Positions 6,673 through 22,184 of a stretch of 63,692 nt of DNA are shown here, piece by piece. This DNA is from Acidimicrobiales bacterium (GTDB lineage: Bacteria > Actinomycetota > Acidimicrobiia > Acidimicrobiales > GCA-2861595): contig DATLFN010000012.1 in NCBI GenBank assembly GCA_035540975.1, forward strand, positions 1 through 63,692, written 5' to 3'. The notes beneath the pieces are model-generated. The model was not told the DNA's origin and made no database searches. It saw nothing but the letters and a program-made list of their open reading frames with translations. A program made the position numbers and the translations under genes. Position 1 is the first letter of the stretch, and the number at the start of each line of letters is the position of its first letter.

Positions 6673-9600
6673 TCAAACCTTCCCGGCCGACAGCTCGGAG
6701 GAAGCCAGCCGGCAACGGCCGGCGTCGAGGCGCTGGCCCCACCGGTCGAAGCCCTCGGCCGCCTGCTGGAGCAGCCGCGCCGCACCAGCCGCATCGCCGC
6801 TCGAGCGAGCCACGGCGGCCCTGGCCTCGTCGAGGGCTGCTCTCCAGCCGCCGCGGGGGTAGAAGGCGGCGACCACGCGCTCGCTGCGCGCCAGGTAACC
6901 GGCGGCGCGCTCCACCTCCCCGGCCGCCGCGCAGGCGATGGCCGCCGGGACGCTGAGGTTGACCGAGCACGGCGGGCACGTCTCCAGCGGCCCGCGGAGG
7001 TCCCGGTCCGCCTCCTCCACGGCGTCGACGGCGGCGCTGGCGTCGCGTGCGGCCCGGATCGCCGTGCCGTGGATCCGATCGAGGAGGTGGCGGGTCCCCA
7101 CCGGCGACCCCCGGGCCGCCACGAAGGCCTCGTCGAGCGCCGCCCGGGCGCCGTCCTCGTCGCCGGCCGCCAGCAGGGCCTCGGCCAGCCGCTGGAGAGT
7201 GAGCGCCTCGCCGCACAGGACCCCCACCGTCCGGTGCCGGGCCACGGCGGTGCGCAGGTGCCCGGTCGCCACCGCCACGTCGCCCCGCAGGAGGTGGGCC
7301 TCCCCGAGGAGCGTGGCCGCGAACGCCTCGGCCCTCGCCGCCCCGGCCTCGCCAGCTCGCCGGGCCAGGTCGGTGGCGAAGGCGATGACGTCCTCGTACG
7401 GCGCGCCGCCGTAGAGGTACGACTCGGCCACGCAGAGATGGGCGTCGATGACGACCGTGGCCAGGTCGGGGCGAAGGGTCGAGTCGAGCAGGTCGAGCGA
7501 CGCCCGCTGCGGCCAGGTGCCCCGCTCGTGGGCGACCATGGCGGTCAGCATGGTGGCGTCGACGAAGTCGCGGAGGTCGCCTGTCTCGACCGCCAGCGCC
7601 CGCGCCTCCCGCCCCGCCTCGTCGGCGTCGTCGAGCCGGCCGGCGCACCACCAGGCCAGGCCTCGGGCGACCAGAAGCTGGACGCGGTCGGCCGGGTCGA
7701 CGTCGTCCACGCCGGCCAGCGTCTCCAGGGCGGCGGGGATGTCGCCGGCGACGACGAGCGTCTTGGCCCGCCGGATGGCGAGCGACCGGCGGGCCGGCGG
7801 CTCGGCCACGGCCATCGCCACGGCGTAGGCGGCGGGGGCGCCGGGGTCGCCGACGGTGGCGAGCGCGTCGGCCCGCCAAGCCAACAGCTCCGGGTCGCGA
7901 GGTGCCACGGCCAGGCCGCGGTCGGCGAGGGTGACGGCGTCCGCCTGGGCCCCGACGGCGAAGGCGTCCACGACGGCCCGCCGCAGCCAGGGCAGGGCGT
8001 CGGTGCCCCGACCGGCGGCGAGGAGGTGGTGGGCCACCCGGGCGGCGGGGGCACCCAGGCCGGCCAGCCGCTCGGCGGCGGCCAGCTGGGCCTCTGTCAC
8101 CTGGGCGGGCGGGACGTCTCGGCACAGCTCCTCGCGGACGAGGTCGTGCCGGAAGCGGTACGACGACCCGCGGCGGGCGACGACGCCGGCGTCGGTGGCC
8201 GCCACCAGGTCGTCGAGCGCCCGGTCCGGCCCCACGCCGGCCAGGGCGGCGAACTCGTCGGCCGTGAGCTCCTCGGCCACCAGGGCGACGCGTCGCAGGG
8301 CCCGCTCGGTGTGGGTGGGCAGCCGTCGCATGCGGGCGGCGATGGCGGCGCCGACCCCGCCCGCCGGAGCGGCGGCCACGGCGTCGGTGCTGGTGGCCAC
8401 CTCGAGGGCGAGGAAGGGGTTCCCACCGCTCAGATCCCACACCAGGTCGAGCTCGTCCCGTGAGGGAACGCCGTCGCGGACGCCGGTGACGATGTCGTCG
8501 ATCTCCGGCCGTCGCAGGGGCCCCAGGTGGATGCCGACGGCCACGCCGCCGCCGACCAGCGCATCGCGCAGGTCGCGCACCGGCGGCGGAGGGCCGGGCC
8601 GCAGGCCGGCGACGACGAGCAGGCCCCGCGGGAACGGCGCGCCGGCGAGGAGGTGGAGCAGCTCGACGGTGGCGTCGTCGGCGTGGTGCAGGTCGTCGAC
8701 GACGAGGACGCCGTTCGTCGCGTCGGCGGCGGCCAGCAGATGCGTGACCAGATGGAGCACCGCCTGGCGATGGACGGGGACCGACGGCGCGGCTGCGGCC
8801 GTGCCGTCGAGGCGGGCGAGCAGGGAGCGCTCGGCGTCACCGAGGGCCCGGCCCAGGTCCGGCCGTTGGAGCAGCAGGCCGCCCACCGCCTCGGTGAGCG
8901 GGGCGTAGGGCAGCGACCGGGTCGACTCCCGGGCGGCTGCTCGGAGCACCAACCACCCGTCGGCGGCGGCCTGGTCGGCCAGCTCCTCGCAGAGCCGGGT
9001 CTTGCCGATGCCGGCCGGGCCCTCGACCAGGACCGCCGCCGGCCGGCCCTCGCGCGCCCGGCGCAGGGCGGCGCCGGCGCGCACGAGCTCGATCTCCCGT
9101 CCCACCAGACCGGGACGGACGGCGCCCGTGGCGGCCGTGCCGAGGATCTCCCGGTAGAGCCCCGTCGTCTCGGCCGACGGGGCGAGGCCCAGCTCGCGAG
9201 CGAGTGCGGTCCGCACGCGCTGGTACTGGCGGATGGCGGCGTGGACCCGACCGGCCGCCAGGTGCTCGCGCATCAGCGCCCGGTGGGCCGCCTCGTCGGT
9301 CGGCTCGGTGTCCACCACGTCGGCCCACCGCCCGGCGGTCCGGAGGAGGTCGACGTGGAGCCTCCGCAGCCGGTCCCGCTCGACCAGCGTCCACTCCTCG
9401 TAGCGATCCTCGGGGAGCAGGTCGCCGCTGTAGCCGGCGGCCGCCTCGGCGCAGGCGGCGGCGTCGCCGGACCGCAGGGCCGCCTCGGCCGAGGCCGAGA
9501 ACCGCTCGGCGTCGACGTCGACGGCGGCGCCCGGGCACAGCACGACGGCTCCGCCCCGGAGGACGACGAAGTCCCTGGACCCGGTCGCCCGTCGCGCCAG

Positions 9601-15237: not shown

Positions 15238-17118
15238 CTACTCGAGCGTGCACCCGCAGGAGTTCACCTCACGGGTGATGATCCCCCGGCCGGTGTCCAT
15301 GTGCGTGGTGCACGGCATGCAGGGGTCGAAGCTGCGGATGGCCCGCAGGACGTCGAGGCCCTTGACCTGCTCGTCGGGCACGCTCTCGAGGAGCGGGGTG
15401 TCGATGATGGCCTGCTCGTAGGGGCCGAGGCCGCCGAACGGGTCGCGGGGCGAGGCGTTGAGCGTCGACGGGGTAGTGATCTGGTAGTTGACGATCTTGC
15501 CCTTGTCCATGTGCATGTGGTGGGCCAGCCAGCCGCGGCCGGCCTCCCAGAACCCCATGGCGATGCGCTCATCCTTGGGCACCTTGTACGGCGTGTGGAC
15601 CTTGGTCTCGCCCCGCCGCCAGTACTCGAGGGCCTTCAGCATGCAGTTCATGCCGATGGCGGCGGTGAAGGCCATGGAGTAGGCCCGGGCCCGGTTGCGC
15701 TCGACGGCGTTGATGACCCGGGGCACCTTCCAGAACAGCTCCTCCTCCGGGAGGCCGTGGCGGGGCATCACGATGCGCAGGCCGTCGCCGGTCGACTCGA
15801 AGAAGGGGTTGTCCACGGTGTTGTTGGCGAGAGCCGTCGACCACAGCTGGCCGTAGGCGCCCGTCTCGATGGTGCGCCGGTCCCAGCGGGGGGCGGTGTC
15901 CCAGGTGTACTTGCCGCGGAAGTCGGTGGCCGTGGGCTTGGGGATGGTGGTCTTGTTCCACGGGTGGTACGGGGAGATGGGGTTGCCCAGGGGGTCGGTG
16001 CGGAAGCGCGGGCCGCCCGAGCGGGTCCAGTCCTCGTAGAACGAGTGGTCGATGAACTCCTCGAAGCCCATGTTGATCTGGGTGATGTTGGTGGTGACCT
16101 GCTTGCCCTCGATGATCACGCACGGCTTCGACCACCGCTGGTTGCCCCAGGTGTCGATGTTCTGGAACGTCGCGTCGTAGTACTCCGAGTTGTCCCAGAT
16201 GCCGGTCTGGGCGAGGTTGCACTCGCGCTGGCCGACCTGCTCGTACGCCGGGTTGGCCTCCAGGAAGAAGTCGATCAGGTCGTCCCAGATGCGGCAGATG
16301 ACCTTGGCGAAGTCGAAGATCTTGCCCAGCTGGGTGTAGTACTCGTTGAACGACGACGTGGAGATCGTGGTGGTCACGCCGCCGGGGGCGAGGGTCGACG
16401 GGTGCGGGTACTTGCCGTACATCAGCATGCACATGATGCGGCCCACCCGCGTCCACTCCAGGGCCTCCAGGTAGATCTGGCCCGTGAGCGGGTTGAGGGC
16501 GTCCATGATGTCCTTGATGGTGCGGTACCCGTGCACGTCGCCGTGGGGCGACAGGGTGCGCTCGGCCCGGGTGACCAGCTCGGGGTTGGTGACCGACACC
16601 AGCGCCGTCGAGTAGTCGGGGCCGGCCAGCAGGCCGAGGTGCAGCGGGCGGTCGTAGAACATCTCGCCGACCTCGCCCAGGTTGCGGACCTCGGTGCCGA
16701 GGGGCGGCGGGGCGGCGCCGAAGGCCATGTCGAGGCACTGCGAGGAGACGGTGGCGTGCACGCCGCCGCACACGCCGCAGGCCCGGGAGCTGATGTCGAT
16801 GGCGTCCCGGGGGTCGCGGCCCTGGAGGATCAGCTCGTAGCCGCGGAACAGCATGGCCCGGGAGTGGGCCTCGACGGCGACGCGGTTCTCCAGGTCGAGC
16901 ACGCAGTGGACGGCGAGGGCGCCGGCCACGCGGGTCATGGGGTCGATGTTCCAGTCCCGCAGGCGGGGCGGGGCGGCCAGCTGGGCACCGGGGCCCTCCT
17001 GGCGGCGCACGTAGCCCTTGGGCCTGGCCGGCGACACCGCGTAGGGGTCCCCCGCCCCCTCGCGCAGCGTGGCCTTCCCGTCCTGGTCGAACTCGATCGG
17101 TAGGTTCTTGAAGCACAT
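15238..17118 (-). CDS. [NiFe]-hydrogenase large subunit, orphan
   Basis: A 626-residue protein from ATG 17118 (AGGAG 12 bases upstream). The nickel ligands are complete: RACGVCGGVH near the N-terminus (Cys114, Cys117, His121) and DPCMPCTTH near the C-terminus (Cys600, Cys603, His606). After His606 there is a 20-residue tail ending SCGCTLE. In the family such a tail is cut off by a dedicated endopeptidase after nickel insertion, so the protein appears to be a maturing catalytic subunit. It resembles the actinobacterial group 1 enzymes that oxidise trace H2, but I cannot fix the subgroup. No small subunit, Hyp factor or endopeptidase gene lies beside it. The upstream neighbour is a divergent regulator and downstream is a convergent lipoprotein. 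Partners must be elsewhere. Confidence 0.85.
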   Translation of the reverse strand: MCFKNLPIEFDQDGKATLREGAGDPYAVSPARPKGYVRRQEGPGAQLAAPPRLRDWNIDPMTRVAGALAVHCVLDLENRVAVEAHSRAMLFRGYELILQGRDPRDAIDISSRACGVCGGVHATVSSQCLDMAFGAAPPPLGTEVRNLGEVGEMFYDRPLHLGLLAGPDYSTALVSVTNPELVTRAERTLSPHGDVHGYRTIKDIMDALNPLTGQIYLEALEWTRVGRIMCMLMYGKYPHPSTLAPGGVTTTISTSSFNEYYTQLGKIFDFAKVICRIWDDLIDFFLEANPAYEQVGQRECNLAQTGIWDNSEYYDATFQNIDTWGNQRWSKPCVIIEGKQVTTNITQINMGFEEFIDHSFYEDWTRSGGPRFRTDPLGNPISPYHPWNKTTIPKPTATDFRGKYTWDTAPRWDRRTIETGAYGQLWSTALANNTVDNPFFESTGDGLRIVMPRHGLPEEELFWKVPRVINAVERNRARAYSMAFTAAIGMNCMLKALEYWRRGETKVHTPYKVPKDERIAMGFWEAGRGWLAHHMHMDKGKIVNYQITTPSTLNASPRDPFGGLGPYEQAIIDTPLLESVPDEQVKGLDVLRAIRSFDPCMPCTTHMDTGRGIITREVNSCGCTLE

Positions 17119-17244
17119 CGGCTGTCGTCTCCTGGACGCGGTGTCGGCCGCTGGGTGCCGGCGATCGGTGGGTGCAGTCTGCACACACCCTGTTACGTCT
17201 GGTAAAGCTTCAGTAAGCGGCGCTAATGGGCAGGAAGGCGGTCG
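17119..17244. promoter_or_regulatory. divergent promoter region of hydrogenase and its regulator
   Basis: The 126 bases between the two starts are less G+C-rich than the surroundings and hold GTTAC, TAAAG and TAAGC at 17192, 17203 and 17214, spaced by exactly 11 bases. GTTAC-n6 resembles half of a GlnR site, but the other elements do not fit well. TGCAGTCTGCA at 17174-17184 is an imperfect short palindrome. The regulator ATG has AGGAAGG before it. Confidence 0.4.
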
Positions 17245-18387
17245 ATGTCGCTACCCGACGGTCGTGTAAGCAGCGGTGTCGCCGACCTCGACACCGTGCT
17301 GGGCGGCGTCATCCCCGGCGACAACGTCGTGTGGGTGGCCGACGACCCGGTCGTCGCCACCCGCCTGGAGGACTCCTTCCTGGCATCGGCCGGGAGGGCG
17401 GGCCTTCCCAGGGCGTACGTGACGACGTCGACCCGCCCCGACCTCGTGGCCGGGCGGGTCGGTCCCGGCGTCCTCGTCCTCGACGCCCGGCCGCGGCAGT
17501 CGCATGCGGCGGCGGACGTGCTGGAGCAGGCGCTGATGGAGGTGTGCGCAGCCCCGGTACCGGCGTGCGTCGTCATCGACGGGCTGGACGCCCTGGCCCG
17601 CCGCTGGGGGCCGCAGCGGGGGCTGGCGTTCTTCAGCCGGGTGTGCCCCCGGATGTTCGACGCCGGGGCGATCGCCTACTGGCGCGCGCCGAGGCGTGAT
17701 CTGGGCGCCCCCTTCGTCGACCAGGTCCAGAAGGTCACGCAGTGCGTGCTCGAGGTGGGCCGGGGGTGGCTGCGCATCGTGAAGGCGGAGGGCCGTCCCT
17801 CCACCGTCCAGGGCCTCCAGCTCGGCCTGTCGGTGGACGACGAAGGCGTACACCTCGACCACGAGCGGGCCGTCGGGCGGCTGGGCCGGGGGCTGGAGCT
17901 GGTGCGCAGGCAGCGCAGCCTGAGCCAGGCCGATCTCGCCCGGCTGGCCGGCGTGACGGCCAGCGCCATCTCGCAGGCCGAGGCGGGCCGCCGCGGCCTG
18001 TCGCTCGACACCCTGCTCACGCTCTCCGAGCGGCTCGGGGTCACGATCGACGAGCTGCTGGGCGGCGTCGGCGGCCCCGGGTACATGCTGGCGCGGCGGG
18101 ACCGGACGAGGAGCGGCGGACCGCACGCCGCCCTGCTGGACGACCCGGGCACCGGCCTGCGTGCGTACCTGGTGACGCTCGCCGCCGGGGAGTCGGGCAC
18201 GCCCCACGTCAGGCACCGCGGGGCCGAGATGGTCCTGGTGGCCGGCGGGCTCGTGCAGGTGCGGGTGGCGGACGACACGCCGGTGATGCGGGCGGGCGAC
18301 GCCCTGGTCGCGACCGACGCGGCGATCGGCGGGTGGCGGAACCTCACCATGGAGCCGGCCCGCCTGTTCTGGGTGCTGCGGGACTGA
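17245..18387 (+). CDS. KaiC-like ATPase fold / XRE helix-turn-helix / cupin regulator
   Basis: A 380-residue protein from ATG 17245 with a good AGGAAGG site. Residues 1-170 look like a RecA/KaiC-type domain: [20 protein letters not shown], then a strand-rich core with [10 protein letters not shown] and [14 protein letters not shown] in the Walker B position. The P-loop lacks the GK[ST] (it reads [11 protein letters not shown]), so ATP binding is doubtful. Residues 211-272 are an XRE helix-turn-helix ([37 protein letters not shown]). Residues 290-380 are a cupin with [18 protein letters not shown]-cupin regulators usually sense small ligands; adding a KaiC-like domain is unusual. Divergence from the hydrogenase gene makes that gene the likely target, and urease downstream a second candidate. 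Confidence 0.8.
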
Positions 18388-18455: not shown

Positions 18456-18525
18456 AGCACGTCGTTAGCTTCCGTTCGTCTGCGGCCCCATCCGGGTGCC
18501 GCTCCGCGGAAGGAGGCACGCGCCG

Positions 18526-18828
18526 GTGAGGCTCACGCCGACCGACGTCGACAAGCTGCTCGTGTCGGTGGCGGCCATGGTCGCCCGCGAGCGGCGGGGT
18601 CGCGGGCTGAAGCTCAACGTCCCGGAGGCGACGGCCGTTCTCTCCTCGTTCGTCCTGGAGGGCGCCCGCGATGGTCGGTCCGTGGCGGACCTCATGGCGG
18701 AGGGCCGCCACGTGCTCGGCCCCGACGACGTGATGGAGGGCGTGGGCGAGATGCTCCACGAGGTGCAGGTCGAGGCCACGTTCCCCGACGGCACCAAGCT
18801 GGTGACCATCCACCGGCCCATCTCCTGA
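18526..18828 (+). CDS. ureA: urease gamma subunit
   Basis: A 100-residue protein, the usual length of the gamma subunit, from GTG 18526 with GGAAGGAGG 10 bases upstream. The family pattern is complete: [13 protein letters not shown] at the start, [21 protein letters not shown] in the middle and [21 protein letters not shown] at the end. It forms the urease trimer-of-trimers with UreB and UreC. Its stop overlaps the ureB start (TGATG), so the two are translated together. Start of an operon of six ure genes and probably the five urt genes. Confidence 0.95.
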
Positions 18829-19148
18829 TGGTCCCGGGCGAGCTGGCGGCTGCCGGTGGGGAGGTCGAGGTCAACCCCGGCCGGGAGCGGCGGGCGCTGG
18901 TCGTCGAGAACACCGGCGACCGGCCCGTGCAGGTGGGGTCGCACTTCCACTTCGCCGACGTGAACGCCGCCCTGGCGTTCGACCGCGAGGCGGCGTTCGG
19001 CTTCCGGCTGGACGTCCCCGCCGGCACGGGCGTGCGGTTCGAGCCGGGCGTGTCGCGCGACGTCGCCCTCGTCGCCCTGGGAGGGACGGCCACCGTTCCC
19101 GGGCTCCAGCTCCGTGCCGGTGGGACCGGCGCCGGCGGGGACGGCTGA
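18828..19148 (+). CDS. ureB: urease beta subunit
   Basis: A 106-residue protein from ATG 18828, overlapping the ureA stop by one base. Family pattern: [20 protein letters not shown], the core [39 protein letters not shown] and VRFEPG near the end. It is a structural beta-sandwich subunit that cups the active site of UreC. Two bases separate it from ureC. Confidence 0.95.
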
Positions 19149-19150
19149 GC

Positions 19151-20854
<1,704 letters not shown>

Positions 20855-20857
20855 GCC

Positions 20858-21502
20858 GTGACGACCGCCACCCTCCTCCTGCTCGGCGACGGCCGCTTCC
20901 CGGGCGGCGGCTCGGCGCACTCGGGCGGCCTGGAGGCCGCCGTGGCTTCTGGCCGGGTGACGGATCTCGACGGTGTCGAGCGGTTCCTGGCGGGCCGCCT
21001 GGCCACCACCGGTCTGACCGACGCCTGGCTGGCGGCGTCGACGTGCGCCGGCGGCGACCCCGAGGTGCTGGAGGCCGAGTGCGAGGCCCGCTGCCCGTCG
21101 CCCGCTCTCCGGGCCGCCGGTCGCGTGCTCGGGCGCGGGCTGCGGCGCGCCGCAGCGGCGTCGTGGCCCGCCCTGGCCGCCGTGCGCGTCGAGCAGCACC
21201 CGGTCGTCCTCGGGCTGGTCGCCCGGGAGGCGGGCCTGTCTCCGCCCGACGCCGCCGCCCTCGCCGTGCACGGACTGGTCGCCGGCGCGGTGTCCGCCGC
21301 CGTGCGCCTCCTCCCGGTCGACATGGCGGATGCCGCAGCGGTGGCCGCCCGCCTGGCGCCCCTGGCCGACGCCGTGGCGGCCGAGGCCTCCGCAGTGTCG
21401 GTCGGTGGCGCCGCCGCCGCCGGCCCGGCGTGGTCGGCGCCCGTCCTCGAGCAGCGGGCCGAGGAGCACGCGGCCTGGGAGGTGCGCCTCTTTGCATCGT
21501 GA
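20858..21502 (+). CDS. ureF: urease accessory protein UreF
   Basis: A 214-residue, all-helical protein from GTG 20858, three bases after ureC. Family points: [21 protein letters not shown] at the start, DAWLAAS, and the closing [18 protein letters not shown]. UreF binds UreD and UreG on apo-urease and controls the GTPase step. It is more Ala-rich than typical members. The end overlaps the TTG start of ureG by 11 bases. Confidence 0.85.
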
Positions 21503-22184
21503 CCACGACCACGACGACGATGTGGCTGCGGGCGGCGGCCCCCCTCCGCGGGCCGGCGGTGCGCCAAACTCGCGCCGGCCGCTGCGCGTCGGCGTCGGCG
21601 GTCCGGTGGGTTCGGGCAAGACGGCGCTGGTCGCCGCCCTGTGCCGTGCGATGTCAGGGCGGCGCCAGGTCGCCGTCGTCACCAACGACATCTACACGCG
21701 CGAGGACGCCGAGTTCCTCCTGCAAGCCGGCGTCCTCCCGCCCGATCGCATCACCGCCGTGGAGACGGGCTGCTGCCCGCACACCGCCATCCGCGACGAC
21801 GTGTCCGCCAACCTGGACGCCGTCGAGCGCCTGGCGTCCGACCATCCGCGCCTTGACCTCGTTCTGATCGAGTCGGGCGGCGACAACCTGACCGCCACGT
21901 TCAGCCCGGCCCTGGCCGACGTGCAGCTGTTCGTCATCGACGTGGCCGGGGGTGACAAGGTCCCGCGCAAGGGCGGCCCCGGCGTGAGCCGCTCGGACCT
22001 GCTGGTGGTGAACAAGACCGACCTGGCGCCGCTGGTCGGGGCCGACCTCGGGGTGATGGCCCGGGACGCGGCCCGCCAGCGGGGAGACCGCCCGACCGTC
22101 TTCCTCTCCCTGGTCGACGACCCGGCGGCGACCGAGGTCGTGGCCTTCCTCGAGTCGCGGCTTTGCTCGCCCGTCTCGACGTAG
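21492..22184 (+). CDS. ureG: urease accessory GTPase UreG
   Basis: A 230-residue SIMIBI-class GTPase. P-loop [13 protein letters not shown], the switch [13 protein letters not shown] with the nickel-binding [16 protein letters not shown], and the base-specificity motif VNKTD are all seen. Starting at TTG 21492 gives a His/Asp-rich N-terminus (HRDHDHDDD), as in many UreG proteins where it stores nickel; GGGAGG precedes TTG by 9 bases. The only other in-frame start, GTG 21522, would lose this stretch and has no ribosome site. UreG carries Ni and GTP to urease with UreF and UreD. There is no ureE gene, so the His-rich end may take its place. Confidence 0.9.

Follow-up and report, generated by a model that had tools for sequence, protein, structure and literature searches.

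Relationship to Described Hydrogenases

The group 1m [NiFe]-hydrogenases (hhmSL) proposed by Ray et al. (2022, PMC9561532) occur in Actinobacteriota, have 5AA5 as their best template, and are encoded by adjacent small-subunit (S) and large-subunit (L) genes, in a cluster that also specifies a HybD-type peptidase, an FeS assembly protein, a CooC-type ATPase, and a TPR protein. The accessible part of that description, in which S and L lie side by side, makes no mention of a solo hhmL. The stretch of DNA analyzed here (the window, 63,692 bases) is the whole of contig C12 of a 3.45-Mb MAG (G000, 97% complete), whose nearest named relatives are MAGs of acidimicrobial and actinobacterial affiliation, several of them belonging to one “nzgw” series. 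It carries an L gene that is located 15 kb from the nearer contig end and stands alone with a divergent regulator gene (REG), the S–L adjacency of group 1m being absent from the window and present on contig C90 of the same genome.

Because the paired operon of this L type matches group 1m in its S–L adjacency, HybD-type peptidase, FeS protein, CooC, and TPR protein, group 1m is the named kind that it most closely resembles in gene content. The 5AA5 template, the occurrence in Actinobacteriota, the S–L adjacency, and the cluster genes are alike at C90 and in the relatives L110 and L112. The set of peptidase, FeS, CooC, and TPR genes is confined to the paired operon type: the operon at L110 encodes HycI (7.7e-16), NifU (6.9e-19), and a TPR protein, and a CooC-like ATPase is encoded on C90, where the assembly breaks off before the operon's L end. 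The window L is regarded as a paralogue of the L of such an operon, the window itself not being a full 1m cluster, and judged from its sequence it is probably a solo paralogue of the catalytic subunit of a high-affinity uptake [NiFe]-hydrogenase of the proposed group 1m type.

The group 1h enzymes (HofKG of Ralstonia eutropha and HhySL of mycobacteria) provide the nearest solved structure and show L homology over the full length, with the window L being 42–44% identical to HofG and to the Streptomyces L. The S of the window type, however, contains SCDGC, whereas L075, an aligned S that is closer to the 1h type, contains SCDGD, and the window L is solo. Group 1l, in which five small membrane proteins are encoded between L and S, differs as well, S and L being directly adjacent on C90 and C74.

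The Solo Large-Subunit Gene

The L open reading frame was called at 15238-17184 on the minus strand, and its start was moved from the GTG at 17184 to the ATG at 17118, since MCFKNLP begins every complete relative. The resulting gene (15238..17118, minus strand) encodes a protein of 626 aa, which matches the Pfam family NiFeSe_Hases (E = 1.9e-65) and has as its best solved relative 5aa5, HofG of R. eutropha, aligned end to end at 510 bits. The two CxxC nickel motifs of [NiFe]-hydrogenase large subunits are located near the N- and C-termini, as CGVC (C114 and C117; 16768..16779, minus strand, aligned to HofG) and as CMPCTTH (C600, C603, and the cleavage-site H606; 15301..15321, minus strand), and H121 is likewise present. 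The CxxCxxH is followed by a 20-residue C-terminal extension (15241..15300, minus strand), which is alike in solo and paired L and is predicted from the sequence to be the target of a maturation protease; the HofG chain in 5aa5 stops at the histidine that matches H606. The four nickel cysteines, both histidines, and the cleavable tail reported in the initial annotation are thus all found. Its suggestion of a chaperone-like protein is unlikely, given that the catalytic and tail residues are fully conserved.

No S homologue was found anywhere in the 63,692-base window, and L has neither a hyp gene nor a protease gene as a detected neighbor, in agreement with the initial annotation. An assembly error as the origin of this arrangement was rejected, the same arrangement being present in MAGs of separate series.

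Other Hydrogenase Genes in the Same Genome

The genome contains three further L genes. The one on C90 adjoins S and runs off the end of the contig; over 408 aa it shares 94% identity with the L of the window, and it belongs to an S–L operon of the window-L type, situated near hypC, hypD, hypE, hypF, and the genes for a SIS protein and the CooC-like ATPase. The L on C152, which is 86% identical to the window L, is also solo, while C74 (L014:9191-13131) carries a second paired S–L hydrogenase followed by a HycI-like gene, with an L that is 53% identical to that of the window. A Pfam search of G000 for HycI returned nothing, yet a protein query does match the HycI-like gene on C74, so that genes of this sort escape the Pfam model. 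Besides the S genes on C90 and C74, an intact solo S with all cluster cysteines is encoded on C104 (L015:8602-9789), between a GGDEF-type gene and miaB, and is 67% identical to the operon S. A broken S fragment on C136 (L016:9552-10139), which directly continues a PAS-like stretch, has the appearance of a pseudogene.

The designation of L as an orphan therefore holds for the locus, there being no S on the contig, but not for the genome, and an L without a partner anywhere in the genome was rejected in view of the S genes on C90, C74, and C104. Of the two options originally offered for L, partners encoded elsewhere is the better supported, with an S of matching type on C90 and the solo S on C104; hypCDEF are accounted for on C90. 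It had also been proposed that an S elsewhere, of the same phylogeny and co-occurrence, would make this an ordinary split hydrogenase. The S genes elsewhere in G000 bear this out in part, but the enzyme is not an ordinary split one, since a normal S–L operon of the window-L type coexists in G000. More than a split is involved: the window gene is a paralogue of an L that is normally paired, the REG–L pair is kept across genera, and regulators of several kinds are found beside different solo Ls.

A more specific arrangement would be one in which the solo L pairs with the solo S of C104 to form an isoenzyme encoded at two loci. That the solo S is intact and keeps its cysteines speaks for this, as does its conservation beside miaB in a different genus: on C83 of G002 (L109:5255-6364) the gene order is that of C104 and all cluster cysteines are kept, G000 and G002 both have a solo L as well as a solo S, and a match of the C104 type is also found on C72 of G003. 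The two genes have, however, not diverged jointly, the solo S being 67% identical to the operon S and the window L 94% identical to the operon L. Furthermore, the REG–L genomes of the f29 family show no solo S of the C104 kind, and in G003 a solo S is present with no solo L detected. A dedicated isoenzyme is considered unlikely.

The Divergent Regulator and the Shared Promoter

REG (17245..18387, plus strand) encodes a protein of 380 aa, to which Pfam, alignment, an AlphaFold model, and Foldseek assign a KaiC-fold domain, an XRE-type HTH, and a cupin. The N-terminal domain (residues 4–210) has no Pfam match; in the AlphaFold model (pLDDT 86) 196 of its residues superpose on KaiC with a Z of 22 and an rmsd of 2.6–3.0. 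The HTH domain (17878..18057, plus strand) is identified as PF01381 (HTH_3, 3e-13) and as PF13560 at residues 212–271, and the cupin domain (residues 305–380; 18157..18384, plus strand) as PF07883 (Cupin_2, 9.5e-8), with strands at 305–379 in the model. These assignments bear out the description of the neighboring gene as a divergent KaiC-like/HTH/cupin regulator. REG shares the RecA/KaiC fold with the KaiC-like ATPases but differs from them in having no Walker A P-loop and in being joined to DNA-binding and cupin domains; since Walker A is missing, and is indeed absent from all 13 aligned REG proteins, hydrolysis of ATP by the KaiC-fold domain is unlikely. The C-terminal half corresponds to XRE–cupin regulators (HTH_3 plus Cupin_2), with the HTH_3 regulator 1y9q of Vibrio cholerae as a Foldseek match, from which REG differs by its additional KaiC-fold domain.

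Downstream of REG and on the same strand, the window contains urease genes (gamma, alpha, and UreG-like; 18496-22184), so that genes of two nickel enzymes, L and urease, flank REG; urease genes were not seen at the other REG–L loci read.

L and REG share a divergent promoter region in the 126-bp gap between the ATG codons at 17118 and 17245 (17119..17244). A sigma-70 promoter scan gave nothing, and motif recurrence points to a candidate REG operator at 17213..17226, AGTAAGCGGCGCTAAT on the plus strand, which is a palindrome with the core AGC-N3-GCT. AGCNNNGCTWA is present in 7 of the 8 REG–L intergenic regions, as compared with a mean of 0.07 and a maximum of 1 in 500 shuffles; in the eighth, that of L064, AAGCATTGCTAAC is recognizable by eye, where it overlaps the REG start codon and lies outside the stretch tested. 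In the whole of G000, WAGCNNYGCTWAC occurs at only two sites, one of which is the window palindrome; the other (L107:4151-4163, on C131) is located at the 3′ end of a DUF3565/DUF1971 gene.

The palindrome is absent upstream of S on C90, where, as in relatives, S is preceded by a different element, GGTGTAG-N2-TACACATACC, noted by eye. Because of this difference, REG probably governs the solo L and itself, and not the S–L operon. Palindromes of a similar kind also precede distant REG genes without an adjacent L, and a glutamate dehydrogenase gene lies within about 2 kb in five of six such cases, which suggests that the distant relatives have an older role in nitrogen or carbon control. L056–L060 are loci of such distant REG relatives and show both features, the nearby glutamate dehydrogenase gene and the upstream palindrome with the AGC-N3-GCT core.

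Recurrence in Other Genomes

The question raised by the initial annotation, whether the large-subunit/regulator pair recurs elsewhere, can be answered in the affirmative: seven further REG–L loci were found in six other MAGs, namely L022 (nzgw82), L023 (nzgw84), L024 and L028 (AVDCRST_MAG10), L025 (LC3_4), L033 (0707_bin12), and L064 (G082), with REG being 57–61% and L 75–78% identical to their counterparts in the window. As the divergent pair recurs in other genomes, its pairing is not a matter of chance. It has to be noted that all genomes compared are MAG assemblies. Further solo L genes have a divergent neighbor of another kind: at L018 (identified by Pfam) and at L020 and L038 (assigned by sequence likeness) it is an ArsR/HTH_20-type regulator, and at L034 an AraC/DJ-1 regulator. 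Numerous genomes of the same order and class show the window-type L in paired form only. The MAG G033 has four solo L genes and no matching S was seen in it; a state of four L without S is not claimed, as its contig C5 starts immediately ahead of the HycI-like gene that comes after a paired L, and the missing S is probably an assembly gap in an S–L operon broken by repeats.

At some of these loci the gene pair has a further companion. Directly downstream of the L at L028 (7893-9335), a weak HycI-like domain (E = 0.003) is fused to a SpoIIE phosphatase (1.6e-32); at L025 (3426-4731) the SpoIIE part is identified by Pfam, and matches to the L028 fusion are found on C52 of G033 and C1 of G082. 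A truncated remnant of the fusion follows position 7923 at L022, and no fusion is found in the window and no intact one at L024 or L022. In the paired operons, L is followed by a stand-alone homologue of the HycI-like part, and after it come genes for NifU-like, true HycI, and TPR proteins.

The fusion after L in some relatives, together with the conservation of a divergent regulator beside the solo L, would be consistent with a signaling module in which the matured solo L is a sensor of H2, nickel, or maturation, read by REG and, where present, by the HycI-like/SpoIIE phosphatase. Several observations make such a role decidedly unlikely: the window, L024, and L022 are without an intact fusion, no residues separate solo from paired L, and there are REG relatives without a hydrogenase neighbor, mostly near glutamate dehydrogenase. 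Known sensory hydrogenases, moreover, also use a small subunit. A form of signaling in which REG, the solo L, and, in several relatives, the HycI-like/SpoIIE protein together read out the maturation or H2-bound state of an L without its own S to transcription is considered quite improbable.

Constraint and History of the Large-Subunit Copies

Between the window L and the C90 L, dN is 0.042 and dS 0.28 (dN/dS ~0.15), and comparisons of the window L with four relatives gave a dN/dS of 0.12–0.19. No fixed difference separates solo from paired L (13 solo and 15 paired sequences), and departures from the columns that are invariant in paired L amount to 1.2–3.0% in solo L, as compared with 0–5.1% in held-out paired rows. 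The catalytic residues and tails are intact in all complete solo L. Going by these substitution patterns, solo and paired L are under strong purifying selection, and a relaxed, decaying copy was rejected for the window L on the grounds of its dN/dS of ~0.15 and the lack of any excess of departures from the paired-invariant columns.

In the L tree, computed without row L047, single clades of all REG-linked L (p-AU 4e-9) and of all solo L (p-AU 3e-6) are both rejected, and the window L is sister to the paired L of its own genome (100/98), as would be expected if the copies are kept interchangeable. That the REG-linked L do not form one clade even though the REG–L adjacency is conserved points to L copies having been homogenized, or repeatedly replaced beside REG, within lineages. 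Between the paired and the solo L of nzgw82 there are 12 differences in the first 76 nt and none in the next 119, a switch that would fit gene conversion and is only suggestive of it, the 5′ part of L being more variable in other comparisons, too (Fisher p = 0.036).

Such exchange could also be read as a sign that the solo L genes are redundant duplicates without a function of their own, kept for a time by duplication and conversion, and the loss of neighbors at some loci (the protease remnant at L022) and the broken S fragment on C136 would be in keeping with this. It is, however, very improbable in the face of the dN/dS of ~0.15, the intact tails and catalytic residues of all complete solo L, and the conservation of the palindrome across genera.

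Proposed Model and Implications

The reading on which the balance of probability falls, if only slightly, is that the solo L genes are regulated extra copies whose products pair with S made elsewhere. In this model, REG would bind the AGC-N3-GCT palindrome in the shared promoter and so control its own gene and the solo L apart from the S–L operon. The solo L would be matured by the general Hyp machinery, following which its tail would be cleaved, and would assemble with a distant S, either that encoded in the operon on C90 or, within this family, also the solo S of C104. The outcome would be an enzyme that oxidizes H2 and draws its catalytic subunit from several gene copies, each under its own regulation. 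In support of this model, the gene is intact, other L copies as well as S and hyp genes are present elsewhere in the genome, the arrangement recurs, the palindrome is found, selection is purifying, and there are no solo-specific residues. Against it, an extra L without an extra S brings no obvious gain unless L is limiting, and the HycI–SpoIIE fusion at some REG–L loci points to signaling.

No earlier description of solo L (hhmL) paralogues with dedicated regulators was found in the literature searched, which consisted mostly of open-access main texts. Soil bacteria that oxidize atmospheric H2 constitute a major sink for this gas. If a single hydrogenase has several separately regulated genes for its catalytic subunit, surveys that equate large-subunit genes with enzymes would overcount the latter. 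The recurring REG–L pair suggests that the supply of one half of the enzyme can be adjusted independently of the other; separate control of the catalytic and the electron-transfer subunits would, if true, be a testable idea, to which the candidate REG operator offers a direct handle in the regulation of the solo L.
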